From a virus, in the IMG/VR virus record IMGVR_UViG_3300037225_000069, positions 1 to 26,608 of that record: a DNA stretch of 26,608 bases; one strand, 5' to 3'. Position 1 is the first letter of the stretch; each line of letters begins with the position of its first letter. Shown one piece after another: positions 2,399-26,354 of this stretch. The position numbers and the translations under genes were made by a program. The notes beneath the pieces were generated by a model. That model searched no databases, was not told where the DNA came from, and saw nothing but the letters and a program-made list of their open reading frames with translations.

Positions 2399-3430
2399 TT
2401 AACGGCCTGAAATAAGTTGGCCAAACTCCCCGGAATTCATTCTCACGAATGAATCTGTATACTGGATTTTCTCATCCCGCCTTATAGCGTCCCGCACCAT
2501 AAGAACGGCAAACTCCCCCCGCCCGGCTTCAGTGACCATCCGGTTAGCATAGGTTGCAATACGGGCAAAGTTAGTTTCGTTTGCACGTGCCGCGAGTCCA
2601 ACTGATACCGCGTACAATTCCGATGGTTTGGTAGGAATTGCAGCCTTATCGGGATTCATTAGAATCGCGTCAAGGTTAACAAGTGACTTGACCATGGAGC
2701 GGAATGTCAAATACTCCAAACTTGCGCCTTCTCCAACCGCTCCCGCCATGGCTATGGCTTCGATATCGGCGGGGAGATTAAGCGCTTCGAGTTTGGCAAG
2801 ATGTGCCCATGTACGGGGGACCGGACTGTTAGTCAAGTCCGCAGTTGCCTCAAACTTGGCTAACAGTTCCGGGCGGAACCTTAGAAAAGCAATGAGTGTT
2901 GCGGGGATGCCGTTCGAGAATGCCCATTGACTCCATGAGCCAATATCGGGTTCCAGTTCCACGATTGACACAAAACGGGATTTTACAGGTTCAAGGATAC
3001 CGGATACTCCAGCGCGGTCAATGCGCCGGTTAGTTGCGCCGATAAACGTAATGCAATCGGGCAATACCTTGCCGTTTATTTGACGGGCAAGGAATAGCTG
3101 CATACATGCGGCCTGTACAGCGGGGGAAGCCTGTCCAAGATCGTCAAAAAACCAAACAGTTTGACGGGTAGCATTGAGAGCCGTTGCAAGGTTGCCAAAC
3201 GGCAGGAATGTTGCGGTCCCGCTCGCCATTCCCCAAGGGAGTCCCTTATAATCTGTAGGGTCACAAACGGCGGGATGTTCGATGAGCAAGTCATAGGAAA
3301 GTGACGCGGATACACTTTCCACTATATCGGACTTGCCGCATCCCGGCATTCCGGTAATGAGCAAGGGCAAACGGGCGGGGACCATTGACTTTAGAACTGT
3401 TTGCAACTGAGCAGCATTGATAACGGGCAT
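2399..3430 (-). CDS. MoxR-type AAA+ ATPase
   Basis: A protein of 343 residues. Walker A is GMPGCGKS at residues 27-34 and Walker B is WFFDDLGQA at 93-101. The sensor-1-like stretch FIGATNR is at 129-135 and a probable arginine-finger segment (EPVKSRF) is at 147-153. This set is typical of MoxR ATPases, which couple ATP hydrolysis to remodelling of a partner, usually through a VWA-domain adaptor. Such an adaptor is encoded two genes downstream. GGAG lies eight bases before the ATG. It is the first gene of the minus-strand operon. The second acidic Walker B residue is Asp instead of the commoner Glu, a change I expect in phage-type members. Confidence 0.9.
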   Translation of the reverse strand: MPVINAAQLQTVLKSMVPARLPLLITGMPGCGKSDIVESVSASLSYDLLIEHPAVCDPTDYKGLPWGMASGTATFLPFGNLATALNATRQTVWFFDDLGQASPAVQAACMQLFLARQINGKVLPDCITFIGATNRRIDRAGVSGILEPVKSRFVSIVELEPDIGSWSQWAFSNGIPATLIAFLRFRPELLAKFEATADLTNSPVPRTWAHLAKLEALNLPADIEAIAMAGAVGEGASLEYLTFRSMVKSLVNLDAILMNPDKAAIPTKPSELYAVSVGLAARANETNFARIATYANRMVTEAGRGEFAVLMVRDAIRRDEKIQYTDSFVRMNSGEFGQLISGR

Positions 3431-3474
3431 GAGAAGCGCTCCATTGATGGATTAAACACATATACAACACTATT

Positions 3475-3504
3475 ACGTTAGTCGATACGGCAAACCATTG
3501 TCAA
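3475..3504 (-). promoter_or_regulatory. Possible promoter for the MoxR operon
   Basis: On the minus strand a perfect TTGACA (-35) occupies 3504-3499. At 18 bases spacing a weak -10, TAACGT, sits at 3480-3475 and matches the consensus only at positions 1, 2 and 6. The MoxR start is about 45 bases further on. The -35 is convincing and the -10 is not. Confidence 0.35.
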
Positions 3505-3595
3505 GGGGAAAATGCATGGAACGTGATTATTTATAAACTATTGCCTATAAAGGGTCTACAGGAACACTGTACAGGTATGGAGCGGGACCGTTAGA

Positions 3596-3667
3596 GCGAT
3601 AGGAATAAATAGACTCATCTATATATGTAGGAATGTGCGGGGAACCTTGACGCGCAAGGAATAAATA
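3596..3667. repeat. Imperfect 16-base direct repeat
   Basis: Two 16-base copies start at 3596 and 3652. They share gcg, then differ at two bases, then share aggaataaata (14 of 16 identical). Each copy is followed within about 20 bases by a related TATATA-containing stretch. The spacing of 56 bases suggests paired protein-binding sites, but this is inference. Confidence 0.4.
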
Positions 3668-3702
3668 ACTGCTCAGACTGATACATATATAAAGGGTATC
3701 GG

Positions 3703-3716
3703 CGGGGATATCCCCG
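3703..3716. repeat. 14-base perfect palindrome
   Basis: CGGGGATATCCCCG reads the same on both strands. It is the longest perfect uninterrupted palindrome I saw in the intergenic region, and could be a dimeric operator. Confidence 0.35.
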
Positions 3717-4071
3717 GCATGGCGGGGACCGTCACAGCGGGGGGGTAATGAATTAAGCAACACGCGCAGGATGATTGTTACTAATTAGTCAATACCGGGG
3801 ATGAAAGGGCGAAAATCGCGTATTTGCCCGTAGCGCAACTGTTAGGCAATAGGTAAGGGTATCGGCCCATAATTCTTCCTAAGACGCAGGGAAGGGCATT
3901 ACAGCGCGATTACAGGGCATTTACCTATTAGTACATACTTGAGATAGAACACTAATAGAATCAACACGTTACCAGCAAAAGTCGTACGATTAAAGTTTAT
4001 TAGCGTATCTCTCGTAGAATGATATACATAGCTATTTACTCACTGGTAAACATTAACTGAAAGGTAACGGA

Positions 4072-4088
4072 ATACCCTATGGGGGTAT
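4072..4088 (+). terminator. Weak terminator-like hairpin
   Basis: ATACCC (4072-4077) pairs with GGGTAT (4083-4088) across a 5-base loop. GC and then TTTT follow. The stem is short and the T run is only four, and no plus-strand gene lies upstream to be terminated, so the function is doubtful. Confidence 0.2.
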
Positions 4089-4160
4089 GCTTTTAAGTAC
4101 CCTTTCCCGCCCGAAACGGTCCCCCATGGCCGATAGGATAAAACATGAACTCATCTAACA

Positions 4161-4208
4161 GGGACACTACAGGGAAGACGGGGGACTTCCCCCGCTGTGC
4201 GGGGTCCC
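4161..4208. repeat. Nested GC-rich inverted repeat
   Basis: An inner perfect 7-base inverted repeat, CGGGGGA (4179-4185) and TCCCCCG (4188-4194), is enclosed by GGGAC (4161-4165) and GTCCC (4204-4208). It could fold as a cruciform or an RNA hairpin. No gene can be tied to it. Confidence 0.3.
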
Positions 4209-4482
4209 TCATCCCGCCAGGATTATTTTCCCGCTCTCACGATCAACCGCTCGCCATTCCCCCGGAATTATTTTCCCCGATTATTCCCGGAATTCCCCCG
4301 ATACCCGCTCGCAACTGTACACGGGTCACTATTGAGATTATTCCAGAGCATTGACGCCTTCAGCGCTCCCCCGCGAACACTTAAGCGCTATCAATGGGCA
4401 GGCGCAATTAAACGCATAGAGAGCGTTTTATAGGGCATTGCGGGGGGTATCGCGTGCTAGTCACTTTACGCGTATGAGAGTC

Positions 4483-4516
4483 CATTTATAGGGGATATAT
4501 GGGCATTTATAGGGGG
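4483..4516. repeat. 12-base direct repeat catttatagggg
   Basis: Two exact copies of catttatagggg start at 4483 and 4504, 21 bases apart, which is two helical turns. A related tttatagggcatt occurs at about 4427-4439. The spacing fits binding on one face of the DNA. Confidence 0.4.
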
Positions 4517-4698
4517 TAACACACTAAATCTACAGAATTAATGGGGTACATGAGACAGGGGGGATTGAATAGTCTTCAGTTGCCCGCAGTTGGCCGTATC
4601 AGGCCATGCGGAAGTTGTCCGGGGTGGTGCCTGCCGCGATTGTCTATGACGCCTTGGAGTCCTGTGCAGGGGTTTAGGGACTGGATAAGGCGCAGGAT

Positions 4699-4741
4699 AA
4701 TTTAGAAAAATAAAAATAGAAAAAATTTAGGAAAATAAAAA
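4699..4741. repeat. A-rich 18-base tandem repeat
   Basis: Two copies of an A-rich 18-mer, aatttag(a/g)aaaataaaaa, lie at 4699-4716 and 4724-4741 with one mismatch. They sit directly upstream of the promoter at 4776. Such A-tract DNA is often bent, and can act as an UP element for RNA polymerase or as a melting region of an origin. Confidence 0.5.
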
Positions 4742-5555: not shown

Positions 5556-5894
5556 ATGATTTCACGGCGCGGATTTTTGAGTTTATTGGGCGGCTTTGCG
5601 GCGGCTGAGGTTGCGCGGAAGATTTACGTGCTACCGCCTAGAGGGTGGGTATTTCCGGGAGGGGTTATTTATCCGGGGGAGGCGCTGTTTTGTTTGCCGT
5701 CAGACGGGTGGTCGTATCGGTACACGTACCGGAATATCGTGACTGGCCACGTTTCGGATGCGACTCCTGAAATTGCAAAGTTGGCGCACACGTTTATTTA
5801 TCCTGATATGGACGTGGTGGATATTTACCGGCAGATGCGGGATGGGAGTCTTGATTACCGGGAGACGGTGGGAGCGTGGGGGACGAATGGCTAA
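5556..5894 (+). CDS. Small protein with twin-arginine-like signal
   Basis: 112 residues. The N-terminus SRRGFLSLLGGFAAA has the twin-arginine pattern S-R-R-x-F-L, a short hydrophobic core and small residues. No clear AxA cleavage site follows, so it may be a membrane anchor or may not be processed. The mature part is rich in aromatic residues and starts YVLPPRGW. GGAG sits six bases before the ATG. A second protein with such a signal occurs next to terL at 21840. No function is recognised. Export of a phage protein by Tat would be unusual, and a chance resemblance cannot be excluded. Confidence 0.6.
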   Translation: MISRRGFLSLLGGFAAAEVARKIYVLPPRGWVFPGGVIYPGEALFCLPSDGWSYRYTYRNIVTGHVSDATPEIAKLAHTFIYPDMDVVDIYRQMRDGSLDYRETVGAWGTNG

Positions 5895-7139: not shown

Positions 7140-7816
7140 GCGGATGGTATGACGGCGGCTCAGAGGAAGAGGCCAACATGATGAAGGAGACTGGAATCCT
7201 GTTTACGCCGGACAATATCAGAGCTATCCGCGAAGGCCGTAAAGTCCAAACGCGGCGCGTGATTAAGCCGCAACCTATGACTGGTCCGATATGGGGAGAT
7301 GTTGAAGAGTCGGAGGATTATCCATACGAGTGGTTTCAGTGGTTTAATGGCGGCGAAAAGAGTCCAACATTTACATGTCCACACGGTATACCCGGCGATA
7401 AACTCTACATCAAAGAGGGCGTAATCATTGATAAAGCGTTCGATCCTCCAGAGCTTGCCGGTTACTACATGGATGGGGCTAGGTCTACTCTGCCGGGACA
7501 GAAGCGCCTGACGGCCATGTTTATGGCAAAGCACTACGCGCGAACTTGGCTGGAGCTTACTGATGTGCGTGTGCAGCGTTTGCAGGACATCAGCGAAGAG
7601 GACGCCAAGGCGGAAGGCGTTAAGCAGCGCAGTATATCGACATGGTGGAACTACTTTGAGGATTGCTATCTATCCAGCGCTCAACAATCTTTCTCTTCAT
7701 TATGGCAATCCATCAACGGTAAAAACAAACCGGGGGAAGATTGGGATGCGTGGGACGCAAATCCCTTCGTGTGGGCGCTGACGTTCAAGCTGTGCGCCGT
7801 GGGAGAAGTGAAGTGA
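7136..7816 (+). CDS. ASCH-like domain phage protein
   Basis: 226 residues. ILFTPDNIRAIREGRKVQTRR, then GDKLYIKE, ELTDVRVQRLQDISEEDA and a C-terminal WDANPFVWALTF match a widespread phage protein type related to the ASCH superfamily. ASCH domains have a PUA-like beta-barrel fold and are thought to bind RNA or modified bases. The ATG overlaps the previous stop (ATGA) and has GGAGGG upstream. ATG codons 14-15 codons further in, after GAGGAAGAGG, are possible alternative starts. The stop overlaps the next gene as TGATG. Confidence 0.75.
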   Translation: MSGWYDGGSEEEANMMKETGILFTPDNIRAIREGRKVQTRRVIKPQPMTGPIWGDVEESEDYPYEWFQWFNGGEKSPTFTCPHGIPGDKLYIKEGVIIDKAFDPPELAGYYMDGARSTLPGQKRLTAMFMAKHYARTWLELTDVRVQRLQDISEEDAKAEGVKQRSISTWWNYFEDCYLSSAQQSFSSLWQSINGKNKPGEDWDAWDANPFVWALTFKLCAVGEVK

Positions 7817-8016
7817 TGGACGGCTTGAGCAAAATGCGCCCTCGCGCTCAGATGGTAGCGTTCTTTATTTCACAGGGATGCGACCGTGAAGAAATCAAGG
7901 AGCGCATGGGAATCAGCGAAGACAGTCTCAAGAAATACTTCTCTGAGATATTCCATACCGTACAAGCTAAGAACCAGATTCAGGCGATGTGGCGCATACG
8001 AACGCTGATCTTTTGA
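7816..8016 (+). CDS. Stand-alone LuxR-type helix-turn-helix protein
   Basis: 66 residues from ATG 7816, overlapping the previous stop as TGATG. The central part, DREEIKERMGISEDSLKKYF, followed by a helix ending in NQIQAM, fits the GerE/LuxR helix-turn-helix with its usual closing helix. There is no sensor domain, so it is a bare DNA-binding module, probably a regulator of phage genes. Target unknown. Confidence 0.7.
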   Translation: MDGLSKMRPRAQMVAFFISQGCDREEIKERMGISEDSLKKYFSEIFHTVQAKNQIQAMWRIRTLIF

Positions 8017-8033
8017 GAATAAGGGAGAGGAAT

Positions 8034-8561
8034 ATGGGACTGAATCCAAGTAACGGAATTGCGGCGAGAACGAATCTAGAAGCGCATGTTTTCCCGAATC
8101 TGGCACGAAGAACCTGTAATGGTGCGGCAGAGAACTATCCTGAAACCAAACTTAAGCCTGTGTTTGAGGAAGTCGATGCGGCGGTTCGGGCGGAATTGAT
8201 TGAGGCTGGTATCTTAGACCCCGACAACATAGACCACGGTAATTACATGGAGAACGAGTGTACAAGGAAGGCGGGGAACGGTTGCTATAAAGAAGTTCCG
8301 TGCTCAATCTTTGCCGCAAAGCACGGATGGGTATTCGAGCGGCGCTGGTACTACTATGCCGCCAAAGGGCCAGGAATCCCTCCAGACAAGGCGGAAGAGT
8401 TTCATGAGACTTGGGGCACACAGGTTCGCGTGGAAGGGCACTGTGGCTGTCCTTCACCCTTGGAATACTGTCATGGGTTTGCTGTTGGGATTTACCACAT
8501 CGACACACAGGAAGGGCTTAACGCTTTTGTGAAACTGCTGGCGTCGATCTACAGAGCATAA
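8034..8561 (+). CDS. Cys-rich hypothetical phage protein
   Basis: 175 residues from ATG 8034, with GGGAGAGG five bases upstream. Seven Cys lie in three groups (around NECTRKAGNGCYKEVPC, GHCGCPSP and EYCHG), suggesting metal binding. It ends with a helical segment. No known family is recognised. A 17-base gap separates it from the HTH gene. Confidence 0.6.
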   Translation: MGLNPSNGIAARTNLEAHVFPNLARRTCNGAAENYPETKLKPVFEEVDAAVRAELIEAGILDPDNIDHGNYMENECTRKAGNGCYKEVPCSIFAAKHGWVFERRWYYYAAKGPGIPPDKAEEFHETWGTQVRVEGHCGCPSPLEYCHGFAVGIYHIDTQEGLNAFVKLLASIYRA

Positions 8562-8570
8562 GGGAGCGGA

Positions 8571-8801
8571 ATGAACATTGAAGAGGAACTCGCGACGTGT
8601 AAGGCTAACCTTTCTGGTCATCAGGATCGCTCTATGCGGTACATAGTTGACTTAGATAACCAAAGAGAAAGAATACAGGAATTGAAGAATGTAGTTTCGA
8701 TTGCGTATCATGCCTTGCGCAGTTATCAGTACGGCAACAGTTCTACCGATTTGGCGCAGGAAATTGCAGATCAATGCTATAAGGCGCTGGAGGATAAGTA
8801 A
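8571..8801 (+). CDS. Small coiled-coil protein
   Basis: 76 residues, largely helical and charged, with GGGAGCGG just before the ATG. Residues 1-40 have heptad-like spacing of Leu and Ile. The stop overlaps the ATG of the Acb2/Tad1-type gene by one base (TAATG). Function unknown. Confidence 0.55.
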   Translation: MNIEEELATCKANLSGHQDRSMRYIVDLDNQRERIQELKNVVSIAYHALRSYQYGNSSTDLAQEIADQCYKALEDK

Positions 8802-9274
8802 TGGGCATTGACCGAGCGACAGGCAAAGACTTCACGATTGAGGATAGGTGCATGAAGCATACACCTGAGTATCCTGACGGCTCTTGGCTTCATCTTGTCG
8901 ATGGGAAAGTAGAGATCGCGACAGGATATTTTTCTAAGGAGTACCCTGATAAACCATCGCCCTACTTTAACAGCGGTCCACCGTTTGTGTTTATGGAAAC
9001 TGCTGAGTGGCCTTGGGACTTTACCAAAGAAAAGGAGCAAACAATGATTGCACAATCGATTCTAGATAACTGGTTCACCTATCACGCTCCTAACCATGAG
9101 CAATTGGTAGCCTACGAAAAACTGCGCAGCGATGCCCGGATTTTCGCCAACACCATTAACGAACTGGTCCCCGATGGGCCAGACAAAACTGTTGCGATTC
9201 GTAAGCTGAGAGAATGTACAATGACAGCCAATGCTGCCATTGCATGTAACCAAGGAATCACACGCGAACCGTAA
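8801..9274 (+). CDS. Acb2/Tad1-type cyclic-nucleotide sponge with N-terminal extension
   Basis: 157 residues. The C-terminal 76 residues (82-157) carry the Acb2/Tad1 hairpin-domain pattern: an aromatic FTYHAP start, YEKLRSDARIFANTI, VPDGPDKTVAIRKLRE and TANAAIACNQ. Acb2 proteins sequester cyclic di- and trinucleotides and thereby block CBASS, with related activity against Thoeris. The first 81 residues are an unrecognised extension rich in aromatic and acidic residues. The internal, in-frame ATG at 9044 has an ideal ribosome site, so a short Acb2-like protein may also be made, or may be the main product. Overlaps the previous stop by one base. Confidence 0.75.
   Translation: MGIDRATGKDFTIEDRCMKHTPEYPDGSWLHLVDGKVEIATGYFSKEYPDKPSPYFNSGPPFVFMETAEWPWDFTKEKEQTMIAQSILDNWFTYHAPNHEQLVAYEKLRSDARIFANTINELVPDGPDKTVAIRKLRECTMTANAAIACNQGITREP
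9032..9046 (+). promoter_or_regulatory. Internal ribosome binding site and in-frame start
   Basis: AAGGAG at 9032-9037, a 6-base spacer, then ATG at 9044-9046, in frame with the gene starting at 8801. The predicted product is 76 residues and consists only of the sponge domain. This site is stronger than the one for the outer start. Confidence 0.6.
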
Positions 9275-9300
9275 TACTAAAAGAAGGGGAGTGTCGGACA

Positions 9301-9678
9301 ATGGCGAAGTTCCGTAAAAAACCGGTAGTTATCGAAGCTACTCAATGGTTTAAGAATGGCGATCACCCAAACGACTATGGCAATGAAGTTATTGGATTCG
9401 AGAATAATCAACCGCGAACATGGACTGGAGTAGATGCGCGGGAAATGGGTTGGGAAGGTCAGGTGGTTCGTTATTTTCGGCGTCCAGATATGTCAGGTGA
9501 AACGCTATGCAAACATTGCAGCGTAAGGATGCACGAGCATGGATGGATCGACACACTTGAAGGTGGTCATATCGTTTGCCCCGGCGATTGGGTAATTACC
9601 GGGGTGGTTGGAGAGAAGTATCCCTGCAAAGATCAAATCTTTAAGGCTACCTACGAGCCGGTTAGCGATTCTCAATGA
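9301..9678 (+). CDS. PGDYG-type phage protein
   Basis: 125 residues. It opens MAKFRKKPVVIEATQW, has WIDTLEGGHIVCPGDWVITGV in the last third and ends in KATYEP. This is a very common small phage protein of the PGDYG type, of unknown function. Two CxxC-like Cys (CKHC) and two His sit in the middle and may bind metal. GGGGAG lies upstream. It overlaps the next gene by ATGA. Confidence 0.7.
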   Translation: MAKFRKKPVVIEATQWFKNGDHPNDYGNEVIGFENNQPRTWTGVDAREMGWEGQVVRYFRRPDMSGETLCKHCSVRMHEHGWIDTLEGGHIVCPGDWVITGVVGEKYPCKDQIFKATYEPVSDSQ

Positions 9679-19683: not shown

Positions 19684-21843
19684 ATGTATAGCCGCAAAGT
19701 TATCGAGCAAAGACTAAACCTGTTTGCGGCCCAGAACGGGTGGATGCCTCAATATCACGCCCTTGAAGAAGTAGAAAAGTTCAAGGAGATGATGAATTCT
19801 ATTGTCAAGTTTGATAGCAACTCCAAGAGTACATGGATCAAATCAATTGCGCCTATGACAGCTAAGCGCAAGGCGGATATAAAGAGATTTATAGAAAATG
19901 AGATGGTGCTCTGTGGCCTCGATAGTAATTACTGGGAGAGCCGCTTCGCTTATGTGTGTAACGAGGCAGGACAGATTTACAAATATCAGCCGAGGCTATC
20001 GCAGCGCATTCTTGACGCAGTAATTTCCGATTTCGATGAGCAGCAAGTATCTATTGAATTGCTCATTTTGAAAGGTCGTCAACTAGGAGTTACATCTTGG
20101 ACGGCATTGAAATTTATCCGCCGTATGCTGTTTATCCCCCATACGCAGGCTGTCATGGCATCCGTCAAGGCGGAATCATCGCAGTTGATCGGGCGCATTC
20201 TGGATACATCTTATGATCGTTGTCCATATTGGCTAGTTCCTCTTAGGACTCCTAAAAAGTCATTTTCTAATGGTTCTATTCTTTCTGTGCAATCTGGTAT
20301 GCAGGCTACCGGCATCGCACAGGGCTGGACCCCGACCTGTATCCACATTTCCGAGATCGCAGACATCCCCGACGCCAAGAAGGTCATCGAAGAAGGTCTA
20401 TTACGCGCCACTCACTCATCTAAGAACCTATTCATGGTGTTTGAAGGTACAGGCGGCGGTAACACAGGATGGTTAGCGGATACGTGGAGAACAAGAAAAG
20501 AAAGTTGGCCAAAAGGTCAATCTCGCCTTTGCCCTATATTCATTCCATGGCCGATGTGTCCAGAGATTTATCCTCAACCAGACTGGATTCGTAAGTATCC
20601 TATTGAAAATAGCTGGAGACCGAATGAGACAACACGCAAGCATGTAACGCGCTGTGAGTCCTATGTTCGTAATACTCCCTATCTTGCCAAGGTAGCTGGA
20701 GCTAATTGGCGTATGCCGATTGAGCAGCAATGGTTCTGGGAATTCAACTATCTTGAAGCTGTAGGGAACCATAGCCAGAAAACATGGCTTGCCCAGATGC
20801 CAGCAGACGACTACGAAGCTCTTACCGGCGTCCATGACACAGTGTTCGATCCTGAAGTGATGGCTGAGGTAGAGGATAATGTTTATGAAATCATTACCGA
20901 AAGATCGACAGGAATAGAAGCCAAAGTACGTAGGGAACCAATGCAAGCCTACGCAATTACCGGACATTCAATAGATGAATCCTTTTATCCTGACGAGTCA
21001 ATTATAGACAGGCAAAAGTCAGTCCTCTCGATTTCATGGAAGTCGCATCGCGGCGAGGAATACAACTGGGACATGATTCCACTGCTCCCGATCAATGAAG
21101 AAATTGAAAAGGATACTTTTGATAAGCTATTAGTCTACGAACCACCAAAAGCAGGATATGACTATGCTTGTGGTGTAGATACGGCTGATGGTCTCGATAA
21201 AGAAGACGAAGAAAGAGCCTGTGCTTCGATCTCCAAGATTGGTACTGGATCGAACTACGATCAGCAGGCTTGTGAGCTTACCAGCCGCAGGATGAATCCC
21301 GCTCAAATGGTCCCGTTTGTGGCTTGCATGGCAACATGGTATGGCCAGAAGACAAAGGATCAAAGAGGGGTAAAATTTGCTATTGAGCAGATCAGGGGAC
21401 CGGGAGATACCTGTCAGAACCAATTGAAGATTATGGGGTTTAACTACCACCATGCCCCAAGGCGCTACGACTCGAAGAAGATTAAGGACGATTCCAAGCA
21501 TAAAGAAGGTTGGTACTCAACCTCATGGAGCGTACCTATTCTCATGACGCGCTTTGTGGAGGCTGTGAACGGAGGATGGTACATCCCTAAATCCAAATGG
21601 TTGATTGAGGAATGTAAAACTCTGGAAAGGCATATCACAGGAAGCAAATCCAAGATGGAGCACAGGAGTGGACAGTTTGACGATAGAGTGAGAGCTTCAG
21701 CACAGAGCTATTTCACAACTCATGACTTGGATGATCTTGCTCAAAGATCACAGAAAAGGTATGCTTTACCTAAGAAGCGGAAGGCTGACCCAAACCAAGG
21801 GCGCTGCAACTTGAACTCAATATCAGTGGGAGAGGATGAATGA
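19684..21843 (+). CDS. terL: Terminase large subunit
   Basis: 719 residues. The ATPase half has a Walker A-like LKGRQLGVTS at 129-138 and a Walker B-like CIHISEIAD at 219-227, with Glu224 as likely catalytic residue and GTGGGN (255-260) as a likely coupling motif. The nuclease half has an RNase H-like fold with acids Asp499 (GVDTADG), Glu568 (FAIEQ) and Asp666/Asp667 (QFDDR). The protein pumps DNA into the prohead and cuts the concatemer. ATG 19684 has AGGTGAGAT upstream. The stop overlaps the Tat-signal paralog (ATGA). It is long for the family, partly owing to an N-terminal extension of about 90 residues. Confidence 0.9.
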   Translation: MYSRKVIEQRLNLFAAQNGWMPQYHALEEVEKFKEMMNSIVKFDSNSKSTWIKSIAPMTAKRKADIKRFIENEMVLCGLDSNYWESRFAYVCNEAGQIYKYQPRLSQRILDAVISDFDEQQVSIELLILKGRQLGVTSWTALKFIRRMLFIPHTQAVMASVKAESSQLIGRILDTSYDRCPYWLVPLRTPKKSFSNGSILSVQSGMQATGIAQGWTPTCIHISEIADIPDAKKVIEEGLLRATHSSKNLFMVFEGTGGGNTGWLADTWRTRKESWPKGQSRLCPIFIPWPMCPEIYPQPDWIRKYPIENSWRPNETTRKHVTRCESYVRNTPYLAKVAGANWRMPIEQQWFWEFNYLEAVGNHSQKTWLAQMPADDYEALTGVHDTVFDPEVMAEVEDNVYEIITERSTGIEAKVRREPMQAYAITGHSIDESFYPDESIIDRQKSVLSISWKSHRGEEYNWDMIPLLPINEEIEKDTFDKLLVYEPPKAGYDYACGVDTADGLDKEDEERACASISKIGTGSNYDQQACELTSRRMNPAQMVPFVACMATWYGQKTKDQRGVKFAIEQIRGPGDTCQNQLKIMGFNYHHAPRRYDSKKIKDDSKHKEGWYSTSWSVPILMTRFVEAVNGGWYIPKSKWLIEECKTLERHITGSKSKMEHRSGQFDDRVRASAQSYFTTHDLDDLAQRSQKRYALPKKRKADPNQGRCNLNSISVGEDE

Positions 21844-22562
21844 GCATGAACAGACGGTCATTTTTTAAGTTTTTAGGTATTGGTGCAGCTACGGCTGCGG
21901 TCGTTCCAAAGATGCTGTCAGAAACGCATAATAGTAATCGTCTTTGGGATATGCTTCCAGATGAAGTAAAAAGTTCACCGAACGGTGGTGCGATAGGAGG
22001 AATTGTATTTTTCGAGCAACCACGCGAAGGATACGACTACAGCATCGGAGTCCAAACTGGCGATGGTATATATCAAAATCCGTCAGTAGTTTCCGTAATG
22101 CGCGTAGGAAACGGAGACGAACCAGACGAACAAGTTGCCGAGTATACTTCACTAAATCAGGGTGGGAAACTGGCAACCAATATCGCCTACATAGCCCATA
22201 AATATGGGGAGAAATGCAAAGACTCCAGAGGACCGCTGATTGTGATCGAGCAGGTACAAGCACCAGGCGATACAGTACAGGATTTATTGAAGATCATGGG
22301 ATTCACGCGGTTCTATAAAGCCGTGAACGCCAAGGGGATAAAAAGAGACGGGTGGTATACGACAAGATTCAGTGGTCCGATGATGATGGATCGTTTCACG
22401 GCAGCAGTAGAAGAAGGTTGGTATAAGCCGAAATCTATATCGCTGCACATAGGAATGACGACATCAGAAGAAAGCTGTTTTAATCATCCTTCATATATGA
22501 GAGCAGCGGCCCAATCGTATGTAGGATTCCACGCATTTGAAGAGGATAAGAGAAATGTCTAA
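21840..22562 (+). CDS. Tat-signal paralog of the terL nuclease domain, apparent catalytic loss
   Basis: 240 residues. Residues 1-24 form a twin-arginine signal: NRRSFFKFLG, then a hydrophobic GAATAAVV. From about 58 to 230 the protein aligns with the nuclease half of terL just upstream: GYDYSIGVQTGDG against GYDYACGVDTADG, IEQVQAPGDT against IEQIRGPGDT, LKIMGF in both, and the GWY and RAAAQSYV / RASAQSYF segments. The first catalytic Asp is Gln72, the Glu is kept (Glu137), and the paired Asp motif is replaced by NHPSYM. So the nuclease is likely inactive. It starts at the terL stop (ATGA); ATG 21846 is an alternative. Exported, membrane-held or structural roles are all open. Confidence 0.75.
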   Translation: MSMNRRSFFKFLGIGAATAAVVPKMLSETHNSNRLWDMLPDEVKSSPNGGAIGGIVFFEQPREGYDYSIGVQTGDGIYQNPSVVSVMRVGNGDEPDEQVAEYTSLNQGGKLATNIAYIAHKYGEKCKDSRGPLIVIEQVQAPGDTVQDLLKIMGFTRFYKAVNAKGIKRDGWYTTRFSGPMMMDRFTAAVEEGWYKPKSISLHIGMTTSEESCFNHPSYMRAAAQSYVGFHAFEEDKRNV

Positions 22563-23211
22563 ATGGCGTAAAGTAGAGAAGCGTCTTCCAGACACAGATC
22601 GTCAAGTCATTGCCCTATCCGGCTCCTGTTCCTATCTAGCCAGTTACCGAGATGGTGAGTGGTGGTTAACCTACACCATCACGTTAGGAGACGTTTCTAG
22701 ATGGATGGAGATTCCCGGTGAGCCAAAGGACTTTGCTTACTGGTGGAAGCGCATCTGTGAATGGTGGGGACGCAGGAAAGACAATGCGCAACAGGCAAGC
22801 GACTATCTAACGGGCTGGACAAGCCGCAATGCCCAACTGGACAAGAAGATTGTCTACTTCACCAATGCAGCGGGTGAGATTCGTATGGGCCTACCTGAGA
22901 ATTTCCCTGCGTCGAAAGGATTCAGTAAGGTAGTCTGCAACAACGCTCATGAAGCGGAGGTTTGGTCAGATCGTTTACGCCAGTACAATTGTTCCAAAGA
23001 GCGCATGAAGGACGAGGAAAGAGAACAAATTGAGGGTCAATACGCCAAGGAAATACGAGGGAATATCCATCATCTGATGGCAAACTCTCACAGCAAATAC
23101 GGCAAGGTTTACATGGAACGCTACCTTGAGCGCATGGATAAAGCGGAGGGTAGAAGGAGAATGACGAGAGAAGAATACAATCACAACGAGGCTCATGAAC
23201 AAGGGCACTAA
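22555..23211 (+). CDS. DUF551-like domain fused to phage structural-type protein
   Basis: 218 residues from ATG 22555. The N-terminal ~65 residues (WRKVEKRLPDTDRQVIAL, then WMEIPGEP) follow the DUF551 pattern. The second part, KIVYFTNAAGEIRMGLPENF, then KVVCNNAHEAEVWSDRLR and a helical basic tail ending HNEAHEQGH, is a type of protein seen near terminase and portal genes. The join is unusual. AGAGGATAAGAGAA precedes the start, which overlaps the previous gene by 8 bases. Function unknown. Confidence 0.6.
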   Translation: MSKWRKVEKRLPDTDRQVIALSGSCSYLASYRDGEWWLTYTITLGDVSRWMEIPGEPKDFAYWWKRICEWWGRRKDNAQQASDYLTGWTSRNAQLDKKIVYFTNAAGEIRMGLPENFPASKGFSKVVCNNAHEAEVWSDRLRQYNCSKERMKDEEREQIEGQYAKEIRGNIHHLMANSHSKYGKVYMERYLERMDKAEGRRRMTREEYNHNEAHEQGH

Positions 23212-23223
23212 CTGGGAGAGGAA

Positions 23224-23658
23224 ATGAAATTCTTCACGATTGAGGTAAGTAGAAAAGATACGATCAAAGGATTGTTCCTTCGGACTCCGTGGTTCACTTT
23301 TGCAATCTATCCATCAGTGCAATCACCTGAAGAGAAAATATCTGACAAGCCTCTACCCACTCCAATTTGGCAAACGGCAGAAGGCATAACAAACAGAACA
23401 GACCCGTTGCTGATGGATAGGCAGCAGCGCCACGAAAATACCGTTCGCATCTTTATGGAGAGGAAAGGTTTCAAGAGGAAGGAAGTCGATCTTCCACTCA
23501 CGGATGAGCGTATGAATAAAATTGGAAGAATGACGTACAATGCTTACAAAGCATTCTCGGATAGGATTAGAAAATCGTATCCTGAGCGATACTTGAATCC
23601 GTTTCTTGCCGGTGCTGTGGAAGCAGGCGAGACCGTCCAGATAAATCGCAAGGAATAA
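23224..23658 (+). CDS. Hypothetical protein, first of a tandem paralog pair
   Basis: 144 residues with GGGAGAGG just before the ATG. N-terminus MKFFTIEVSRK. The C-terminal half, DPLLMDRQQRHENTV, MERKGFKRKEV, PLTDERMNKIGRM, closely matches the next gene, NPLLMTRREAHESTV, MERKGFDRKEI, PLTDERYKEIGRT. The conserved half is helical and charged. Located between terL and the portal, it may be a head-assembly or packaging factor, but this is positional only. Confidence 0.6.
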   Translation: MKFFTIEVSRKDTIKGLFLRTPWFTFAIYPSVQSPEEKISDKPLPTPIWQTAEGITNRTDPLLMDRQQRHENTVRIFMERKGFKRKEVDLPLTDERMNKIGRMTYNAYKAFSDRIRKSYPERYLNPFLAGAVEAGETVQINRKE

Positions 23659-23741
23659 AAACTGTATACGCTAGGAACGATTTGGTTTATGATCCGCATA
23701 GTCAAGTTCATGGGCACTGGACTTGCGAACTGGGAGATGAA

Positions 23742-24182
23742 GTGAAAATCTTTGGCATTGAGATAATCAATACACGCATACTCCATGCGCTATTTGGATG
23801 GTCTCTCCTGTTGCCTTCTAAGAAAGAACCAACCAGACCGTTTGAGGGAAAAGTCACATCGAATGAATCGGACGACGAAGTATGGGCCGATCCGTTAGAG
23901 ATCGCTGACGACTCTATCCTCCACCAAGCCAATCCTCTCCTGATGACAAGACGAGAGGCTCATGAGAGCACAGTTCGGTATTGGATGGAGCGCAAAGGGT
24001 TCGACAGGAAAGAGATCGAAAAACCATTGACAGATGAGCGATACAAGGAAATCGGAAGAACGCCATTTGGAAAGTATTTCGCGGCGCAGGAAACCTACCG
24101 TAAAAACGTGTTTAAAGATGAACGATTTAAGGATATTTCTCTTCCTATTGTAGATGCGAGGGAAATTGGTATAGACGGTTAA
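23742..24182 (+). CDS. Hypothetical protein, second of a tandem paralog pair
   Basis: 146 residues from GTG 23742, with GGGAG five bases upstream. I chose this start because MKIFGIEI then lines up with MKFFTIEV of the paralog, and the lengths are almost equal (146 and 144). TTG 23682 is the longer alternative and lacks this match. The C-terminal half is the same conserved helical block as its neighbour. The acidic linker differs. Function unknown. Confidence 0.6.
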   Translation: MKIFGIEIINTRILHALFGWSLLLPSKKEPTRPFEGKVTSNESDDEVWADPLEIADDSILHQANPLLMTRREAHESTVRYWMERKGFDRKEIEKPLTDERYKEIGRTPFGKYFAAQETYRKNVFKDERFKDISLPIVDAREIGIDG

Positions 24183-24198: not shown

Positions 24199-24333
24199 AT
24201 GCATTTAGTCCACGGCAGAGACGCTGACGTGGCGTACCGGGAGGAAAGCGATCATGAGTGTATTCTGATCCGAACATGGAAACGGTGCATTGGCAGGTAC
24301 CAGACTTCTCCGCCTCTCCTAACGCTAGAATAG
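24199..24333 (+). CDS. Possible 44-aa gene overlapping the portal start
   Basis: ATG 24199 opens 44 codons, with AGGAG 12 bases upstream. It starts MHLVHGRDADVAYREESDHE and runs through the GTG start of the portal in another frame. It fills the only gap between genes here, which fits the tight packing, but the ribosome spacing is long. Alternatively it is untranslated leader for the portal. Confidence 0.3.
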   Translation: MHLVHGRDADVAYREESDHECILIRTWKRCIGRYQTSPPLLTLE

Positions 24334-26354
24334 CTTGGATTGAGAGCCAAATCCAAGAGAGCGAGGGATGGCTAGAGGGCCAAAAGTCATACAAGAATCT
24401 TTCAGCTAACCTACGTGTTTTCAACGGTATATTCAAAGATAAATCCAAATCTCTACTCGTCACAAATGGCCTTCGGTATGCGGTAAATAAGTTCGTCACG
24501 ACACTTGCCGAAGTACGTGAAATCGCCTCTTATGGGAGTGACGTTAAAGCATACAAGCCGATGGCTGAGATGCTTACCAAAGTATCAAAGGCAGTTTATT
24601 TAGAGTCTGACTTTCCAATTCAAATCCTCAAGGTTCTGCAATACGCCACGGTAATGGGTATAGGATACCTGTGGCCTAAAGTACGGGCGACAGAGTACGG
24701 ATATGGTCCCAGAGAGATGGTTTTTGATGCGCTAGGACTCTTGGACGTAATGCCTGTTCAGATTCCTGCTCGTTCAAATGATGTGCAGGATGCGTATGCC
24801 GTAACGATCTACGACTACATGCCTATTGCTGAAGCTCATGGAAGGTTTCCATTATTTCAAGGAAAACTCCAGACGGTAGGCATGAATAACTATAAGTCGA
24901 TGATTCAGGCACAGCGTCAAGACTTTGCGGCATCCTACAGATATGGAGAATTACAAGATCAAGGCAAGTCGTTCGGTAATCTGTACTCAGAGATAAGATA
25001 CACATTCATTAGGGACTTGAGAATTAACAATACAGGCTTTGAGTTGCCTATGGGCGATCCGGGGACGACATGGTTTTACAAAGTTCCGAGTGTGGGTCAA
25101 GAAATATTTGGAGGGATCAGGAATGGTAAACCTTACATGCGCCCTGCAATGGCTGAGGACTGCAGGGTGTACCCAAACTTACGCCTCATCATTTCATCTG
25201 CAGGGTTGGACAGGCCAATGTACGACGGGCCAGCTTTTGACTGGGACTCGAAAATCCCAGTAATCCAGTACACGGTAGACGACGTTCCCTGGGAGCCGGG
25301 AGGAAGATCGCTAGTTGGGGATGTAGCGTCTATCGAGACAACGATTAGGAAGCATGAGCGGAAGGTAGATCAAGTCATTACCGCTCGCCTTAACCCTCCA
25401 ATGGGATATGACCTTGATAACAATGGGGGTTCAAAGATTGAGCACTTTGATATTTTTGAAGAGGATGTACGTCTTGGACTAGCGGGAGGAGAACCAAAAA
25501 AGAGTTTCCAATCTTTACTTCCTGATGAAGTAAATGTAGGAAATGAGAACTGGACATTTTTGAAATACCTGCGCGAAGCTCTGTTGGCCGAGCTTGGATT
25601 GAACGATGTAGGGAATCTAGCCAACGTAAAGATCAACATGAATAGCGACGATGCCACCAAGCAAATAGAATCGATAGGTCCTATTGGCAAAGGCATTGCC
25701 ATGCGTCTTGAGAAGTCGAACAAGCGCGTAGGAGAACGAGTTAAGTTCCTTATTCCTCAATGGTTTGATACGTGCAGACTCATTGAGTATGTGGGAGAGG
25801 ATCACATTGCACGCGAGGTGTTTGACTACAATCCTGACGACATGGTTCCAAGCCATCTTCCAGATGAGTTGCTGAATGGGAACTATCCAGAAACTCCATC
25901 GATGTATGACAAGCTAACAAGAGCCAAGTGGCTGGTCAAAAAACTCCGGCTTATTTCCGTGCCGAGCATGTTGCTTAAGATCACGGCTGCCCAGGAGCAG
26001 CTCAAATATCTCCAACTCAAAAGGACACCTGACTGCCCATTGAGTTGGGAAACCTGCTTTGAGAAGCTGGACATCCAGAACCCCAAGCAGGAGATGGAAA
26101 AGTATTTCAAGGAGCAGACTGAGCTAACCAAGGCCAAACTTATTGGAATGGCTCTGGCGCAAGAGGAAATGAAGAAGTTAGGTATACAACCTCCAGAGGA
26201 AGGCGGTGGAGGTAAGGGCGGAGGAAAAGGTGGAGGCAAGGGAGGTGGAGGATTACATGCTGGTGGTAGACCTCCTTCTGGGCAAAGCTCACCGAAACTA
26301 GCCCAAAAGGGCGCAGCAGGCGGCGCTCCCCGTACAGTTGTAAAAGAAAGCTAA
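24258..26354 (+). CDS. Portal-like protein
   Basis: 698 residues from GTG 24258, with GGAGGAAA 10 bases upstream. ATG 24276 has no ribosome site. Size, position after terL and its companions, and the layout of a mixed alpha/beta body (wing and stem regions with KPYMRPAMAEDCRVYP and IPVIQYTVDDVPWEPGG) followed by helical crown-like segments point to the dodecameric portal through which DNA enters the head. The P22-type group is a guess. The C-terminal 60 residues are Gly/Lys repeats (GGGGKGGGKGGG) and Pro/Ser, probably disordered. No motif proves the assignment. Confidence 0.7.
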   Translation: MYSDPNMETVHWQVPDFSASPNARIAWIESQIQESEGWLEGQKSYKNLSANLRVFNGIFKDKSKSLLVTNGLRYAVNKFVTTLAEVREIASYGSDVKAYKPMAEMLTKVSKAVYLESDFPIQILKVLQYATVMGIGYLWPKVRATEYGYGPREMVFDALGLLDVMPVQIPARSNDVQDAYAVTIYDYMPIAEAHGRFPLFQGKLQTVGMNNYKSMIQAQRQDFAASYRYGELQDQGKSFGNLYSEIRYTFIRDLRINNTGFELPMGDPGTTWFYKVPSVGQEIFGGIRNGKPYMRPAMAEDCRVYPNLRLIISSAGLDRPMYDGPAFDWDSKIPVIQYTVDDVPWEPGGRSLVGDVASIETTIRKHERKVDQVITARLNPPMGYDLDNNGGSKIEHFDIFEEDVRLGLAGGEPKKSFQSLLPDEVNVGNENWTFLKYLREALLAELGLNDVGNLANVKINMNSDDATKQIESIGPIGKGIAMRLEKSNKRVGERVKFLIPQWFDTCRLIEYVGEDHIAREVFDYNPDDMVPSHLPDELLNGNYPETPSMYDKLTRAKWLVKKLRLISVPSMLLKITAAQEQLKYLQLKRTPDCPLSWETCFEKLDIQNPKQEMEKYFKEQTELTKAKLIGMALAQEEMKKLGIQPPEEGGGGKGGGKGGGKGGGGLHAGGRPPSGQSSPKLAQKGAAGGAPRTVVKES

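Follow-up and report, generated by a model that had tools for sequence, protein, structure and literature searches.

Gene content of the region behind terL

The stretch of DNA analysed here, which we call the window, is the full length of the 26.6-kb IMG/VR virus record IMGVR_UViG_3300037225_000069 (26,608 nucleotides). Besides the genes listed below, it carries genes for a methyltransferase, a DUF2201 metallopeptidase/VWA-like protein and an AAA ATPase; related contigs of the same phage lineage are referred to by L numbers.

19684-21843, plus strand: terL, full-length, 719 aa, with D499, E568, D666 and D667 (PHROG terminase matches; invariant acids)
21840-22562, plus strand: pseudo-nuclease gene with a Tat-type leader, 240 aa (open reading frame; BLASTP against terL; orthologues on eight other contigs)
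21846-21923, plus strand: conserved Tat-type leader, MNRRSFFKFLGIGAATAAVVPKMLSE (17 related leaders with both Arg invariant; profile scores)
21993-22559, plus strand: RNase H-like terminase nuclease domain lacking an intact catalytic triad (AlphaFold2 model; Foldseek and VIA matches to T4 gp17; alignment with 31 TerLs)
22053-22055, plus strand: Gln72, at the place of the motif-I catalytic Asp (TerL D499; alignment)
22248-22250, plus strand: Glu137, at the place of the motif-II Glu (TerL E568; alignment), kept in 7/7 copies
22546-22562, plus strand: 3' end of the pseudo-nuclease gene, AAGAGAAATGTCTAA, which encodes the KRNV tail and is also the ribosome site and start of C1 (gene ends compared at ten loci)
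22555-23211, plus strand: C1, with a weak DUF551-like part and a NAQLxKKI..GEIRMGLPE part (weak DUF551 match; lineage-wide presence)
24258-26354, plus strand: portal gene (P22_portal match below the gathering score; residues ~406-460 match Tat-fused fragments)

The ATG of the pseudo-nuclease gene overlaps the terL stop codon (ATGA), and a second ATG at 21846, downstream of GAGAGGA, a plausible ribosome site, would give a protein of 238 aa that begins MNRRSFFKFLG. A sequence-only reading had described the open reading frame right after terL as a second copy of the terminase nuclease domain with a twin-arginine signal instead of the ATPase half. As far as it could be checked, that description held throughout. 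The coordinates proved exact, and BLASTP aligns residues 36-235 of the encoded protein with residues 462-684 of the window's own TerL (35% identity, E 2e-37). The twin-arginine motif is present and the ATPase domain is missing, as the protein has 240 aa only and homology to TerL begins at residue 462.

Fold and catalytic residues

An AlphaFold2 model of the pseudo-nuclease, built with 38 aligned sequences as input, has a pLDDT of 80.7 overall and of >90 over most of the domain, the leader being of low confidence. Foldseek against the PDB ranks the nuclease domains of T4 gp17 and RB49 gp17 first (E 3e-7), VIA-align matches the model to T4 gp17 with Z 21.2 over 189 residues, and the named structural matches in BFVD are nearly all terminases; PDB sequence searches returned no useful match. 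For the nuclease domain of the window's own TerL, the model reaches Z 20.5 against T4 gp17. The alignment and the two structure predictions, which had been proposed as a check, thus agree on a terminase nuclease fold common to the copy and TerL, and the composition of the window protein, in which a Tat-type leader precedes an entire RNase H-like terminase nuclease domain, is well supported.

D499, E568, D666 and D667 are invariant in the 31/31 TerL nuclease domains aligned. As first read from the sequence, Gln72 replaces Asp499 in the pseudo-nuclease, the acids of the FDD motif are lost (TerL Asp666 and Asp667 find no counterpart in the alignment with the 31 TerLs) and Glu137, which aligns with Glu568, is kept, here and in the other six copies that we found. 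Conservation in the copies does not extend to E643, E648 and H660, which are likewise invariant in TerL. The motif-I residue is changed in 6/7 copies (Q in the window, E in four, Y in L027; D in L083), no copy keeps the motif-III DD pair, of which one Asp remains in L083, and the full set of acids from motifs I, II and III is found in 0/7. In the TerL model, a beta-hairpin (209-214, 217-222) lies just before the motif-III helix; it is absent from the pseudo-nuclease model, so that the motif-III region has been shortened, beyond mere mutation, and the hairpin region is missing in all seven copies. Judging from the loss of catalytic acids in every copy, the pseudo-nuclease is very probably non-catalytic. 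The earlier proposal of an inactive copy stands with a qualification for L083, which keeps the motif-I Asp and one motif-III Asp, so that inactivation appears clearest at motif III. Homologues with all catalytic acids and no leader had been named as evidence against that proposal; among the homologues of the copy, none was found to have the full set of acids, and none to be leaderless.

The leader

The twin-arginine motif of the window protein is followed by a hydrophobic region (MNRRSFFKFLGIG). Arg3 and Arg4 are kept in 17/17 distinct leaders (34/34 Arg) and never replaced by Lys, compared with 48 Arg and 32 Lys in comparable R/K columns of the domain; F6 and K8 occur in 16/17 leaders, and I12, G13, A17, V19 and P21 are invariant. 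The leader motif agrees with SRRxFLK, the consensus for bacterial Tat signals (PMC13323110). The Tat motif noted in the sequence-only reading is real; of the curated profiles, TIGR01409 is passed by the orthologue in L050 (18.2) and by four sister proteins with other cargos (18.4-24.9), but the window leader scores 16.0 against this model (cut-off 16.7) and 18.2 bits against PF10518 (cut-off 22.7), slightly below both. With a best 19-mer hydropathy of 1.43, the short, mild hydrophobic stretch would resemble a Tat signal more than a transmembrane helix. Because Pro21 follows the VA pair and residue 25 is variable, cleavage is uncertain in several members, and some leader proteins may stay anchored. 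These features suggest that the pseudo-nuclease is targeted to the Tat pathway and may be exported by it.

A degenerate leader pattern matched 17 of 2.9 million viral contigs, all of them in the window's phage lineage as judged by terL, C1/portal or contig identity. L007, L019 and L055 carry a second, weaker type of leader on a cysteine-rich protein, whose relatives in L078, L094 and L075 occur without a leader. Elsewhere in the window, the open reading frame at 5556-5894 (plus strand) begins like a Tat signal (MISRRGFLSLLGGFAAAEVARKIYVLPPRGW), but its leader is of another type and its cargo is unrelated; no family match was found for it.

Orthologues, origin and selection

Seven distinct copies of the pseudo-nuclease are present on nine contigs, the window's orthologues being those of L094 (64%), L050, L075/L101, L084, L083 (the same as L091 and L098) and L027/L102. 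They were found by searches seeded with terL, the leader pattern and alignments; the window protein alone, used as a query in the viral contigs, gave zero matches, the search patterns having fallen on variable stretches. A search of plasmids gave no match, and the sole match in one scan of bacterial genomes was terL-type, on an actinobacterial MAG contig. The phage database contained only a distant terL relative, in phages of Tunturiibacter (Acidobacteriota), whose 27.5% identity is too distant for host assignment; the gene between terL and portal in the Tunturiibacter phage has no similarity to C1. The open-access literature searched describes neither a terminase domain linked to Tat nor an inactive paralogue of the terminase nuclease, in line with the earlier impression that such a fusion had gone unreported.

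A maximum-likelihood tree of 61 nuclease domains groups all seven copies with 100/99 support, as a single clade that arises on a long stem from within the TerLs; the tool flags long branches meeting there. This arrangement points to one old duplication and not to repeated fresh ones. The tree of the copies and that of terL disagree: window and L041 share 92% identity in the terL nuclease, but the L041 leader bears a different cargo, which implies that the gene has been exchanged or lost between lineages. Pairwise Nei-Gojobori dN/dS, taken from unsaturated dS only, lies near 0.1-0.3 in the domain and at 0.03-0.2 in the leader. The pseudo-nuclease is thus under purifying selection, and chance is excluded. 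We rejected the explanation of the copy as part of a split terL, as an artefact of assembly or as a pseudogene, since a full terL adjoins it and the orthologues are intact on independent contigs. Signal peptides are usually more variable than the mature part of the protein. Here, in contrast, identity between copies is higher in the leader (60-92%) than in the domain (43-68%), even though leader DNA has diverged (median identity 72%), which indicates that the leader is under unusual constraint.

Other cargos and the slot before C1

The sequence-only reading had suggested looking for other phages with a Tat signal on the nuclease fold. These exist, and the same leader is also found on other packaging and head cargos. 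In L026, L032/L033 and L078 it precedes a portal fragment that corresponds to roughly residues 406-460 of the portal in the window. Matches to portals reach E values of 1e-9 to 1e-10 for the pieces from L026 and L032; the shorter piece from L078 reaches 1e-5 with portals and 1e-7 with the L026/L032 pieces. In L012, L052, L078 and L079 it precedes a decoration-like domain with RYxYV and PGxYxFIQ motifs, which occur in the same order in a ~290-aa head-region protein of these phages. The comparison of the two (hmmsearch E 0.016; hhalign probability of 74-84% across 15-22 columns) lends moderate support to a link between the decoration-like cargo and the head-region protein. A GSGY-containing cargo follows the leader in L041 and L078; that it might be a piece of a head protein is a suggestion only, with no statistical support (hhalign probability 0.7%). 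Short cargos with no assignment occur in L006 and L097. Since terL (2489-4711) and portal (7200-9325) of L006 are broken by frame changes and stops, through decay or sequencing errors, its gene models are unreliable and we do not rely on its 73-aa Tat cargo. The spacer of the L083 nuclease copy (TPEVYPEASAPITFEMLQRAYGET) recurs in the decoration-type proteins (E 9e-4), a sign that cargo types may have recombined with each other. The pseudo-nuclease is old and maintained, and it is one member of an exchangeable leader-cargo family.

The slot of the Tat genes is optional; in most cases it lies between terL and portal, immediately 5' of the conserved gene C1. They lie directly before C1 in the window, L006, L026, L032/33, L041, L050, L052, L078, L079, L083, L084, L094, L101 and L102, and in most of these loci the stop of the Tat gene overlaps the start of C1. 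The KRNA, KRNV or KRND C-termini common to different Tat cargos are the in-frame reading of the C1 ribosome site and ATG. Within the lineage, C1 is missing from five outgroup contigs only, and many lineage contigs have C1 without a Tat gene, which makes the slot optional. In L012, the position between terL and C1 (8153-9385) is taken by a 410-aa second TerL copy that consists of the ATPase half only and has HISE changed to FLSD, and the Tat gene is located upstream of terL instead. L004 (5559-5783), L005 (4863-5087) and L066 (9602-9826) have a leaderless portal-like piece in the slot before C1, the same protein in the three contigs, with a weak match (E 0.002). The slot thus repeatedly acquires pieces of the packaging motor.

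Other peculiarities were seen around terL and C1. C1 resembles a fusion, its NAQLxKKI..GEIRMGLPE part occurring alone in L041, L026 and L012. Window genes 23224-23658 and 23682-24182 are adjacent paralogues (35% identical, E 4e-22), a further sign of local duplication between terL and portal. The terL frames of L003, L022, L046, L050, L052, L053-L055, L058 and L059 reach up to 1345 aa with large inserts, and that of L050 begins with an intein-like CLDPDTKVLTADLRWV stretch.

Discussion

The explanation that we favour, with a probability of roughly 0.4, is that the pseudo-nuclease belongs to a phage-specific family in which a conserved Tat-type leader is joined to non-catalytic pieces of the phage's own packaging and head machinery, and that these act as decoys or competitors. 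The nuclease domain would fold in the cytoplasm and be taken by its RR leader, in the folded state, to the Tat translocase, to be held at, or passed through, the inner membrane. There it would work by binding and not by cutting, as a decoy or competitor for whatever recognises the nuclease domain of the motor. This could be a host sensor of TerL or portal such as Avs or, alternatively, the target could be the motor or portal of a competing phage. Avs1-4 recognise the phage terminase large subunit and portal (PMC12931631), and we prefer a decoy or competitor because the cargos include pieces of precisely these two proteins, because close relatives carry different cargos, a pattern seen in conflict systems, and because the slot need not be occupied. 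Among the regulator, decoy and structural part considered from the outset, it would be the best fit to the cargo set. Some of the evidence runs against it: the decoration-like and unassigned cargos do not fit a model in which Avs is the only target, and the window leader is slightly under the curated Tat cut-offs. Known Avs sensors are, in addition, cytoplasmic, so that an exported decoy is not an obvious design. Since Tat can carry folded proteins along with bound partners (PMC4273604), it is conceivable that a bound partner is removed by co-export. A fuller version of the idea, which we regard as possible and somewhat doubtful, is a leader-and-cargo system in which one Tat signal serves exchangeable, inactivated pieces of TerL nuclease, portal and head proteins. 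Delivered to the membrane as mimics, these would weaken rival phages or the immunity that senses the motor, and might take bound partners out with them through Tat co-export.

Another candidate role is that of a membrane-tethered cofactor of packaging or assembly, its leader anchoring the dead domain at the inner membrane, where, as the head is assembled, it would dock or pace the motor, the portal or the product of C1. The position between terL and portal, the coupling to the lineage-conserved C1, the head and packaging origin of the cargos and purifying selection are all consistent with such a role. However, many lineage contigs have C1, terL and portal but no Tat gene in the optional slot, and the cargos are not equivalent, so that this is not an essential assembly step; we regard a cofactor as rather unlikely. 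Constraint on the leader beyond the RR pair (I12, G13, A17, V19 and P21) might instead point to a virion or assembly component with a phage-specific docking peptide, unrelated to Tat, that places different head-protein pieces in the particle, in keeping with cargos drawn from head and packaging proteins; we consider this improbable, since the motif fits the SRRxFLK consensus (PMC13323110), sisters pass the curated Tat model and Arg is never swapped for Lys.

Tat does export folded domains (PMC6708511, PMC13323110), and an RNase H-like pseudo-nuclease could still bind DNA, so one may think of a periplasmic factor for superinfection exclusion or DNA sensing that binds incoming phage DNA or ejected proteins. 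A precedent is T4 RI, a phage protein that resides in the periplasm and is believed to sense the DNA of superinfecting phages (PMC8385771). We give this reading little chance, because the domain is close to neutral in net charge (-5 to +5 in the different copies) and no more positive than TerL, and the portal and decoration-like cargos offer no reason for DNA binding. Finally, a copy lying directly behind terL, in a region with other duplicated or fused genes (the 23224-24182 paralogues and the C1 fusion), could be a decaying tandem duplication with no function. Seven intact copies of one old origin, about 43-70% identical in the domain, with dN/dS of about 0.1-0.3 and overlapping starts and stops kept, already largely refute this and leave it a negligible likelihood.

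Phage packaging proteins act in the cytoplasm or in the virion, and a family of inactive fragments of them that is maintained and bears an export signal would represent a phage accessory system of a new kind. If our preferred reading, a decoy or competitor, is true, this is perhaps the first terminase- or portal-derived decoy; it would connect motor-sensing immunity with protein export, and the phage leader is offered as a candidate user of the host Tat system.

With phage decoys and inhibitors of motor-sensing immunity (Avs1-4, PMC12931631), the family would have in common catalytically empty pieces of the recognised proteins and an optional, variable slot. The likeness is one of functional analogy only. 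For the Tat leader, we know of no counterpart among such decoys and inhibitors. Polymorphic toxin systems (PMC3482391) likewise combine a constant N-terminal trafficking part with exchanged C-terminal parts, but those of the present family are inactive or structural phage fragments and not toxins, no immunity gene is evident, the domain is a terminase pseudo-nuclease, and the neighbouring C1 occurs lineage-wide without a Tat gene. The N-terminal (N/D)RRxFFKxLGIG motif and the short hydrophobic stretch are common to Tat substrates (TIGR01409/PF10518); unlike these, one leader serves unrelated cargos within a single phage lineage and is more conserved than they are, the window copy scores just under the curated cut-offs, and no cofactor-binding enzyme is attached. 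Sequence homology, fold and the motif-II Glu with its surroundings are shared with the C-terminal nuclease domain of TerL (T4 gp17, RB49 gp17, G20c, P74-26), from which the pseudo-nuclease differs in that it has no ATPase half, has usually replaced the motif-I Asp, has lost the motif-III Asp pair and hairpin, has gained a Tat-type leader, and coexists beside a full TerL.
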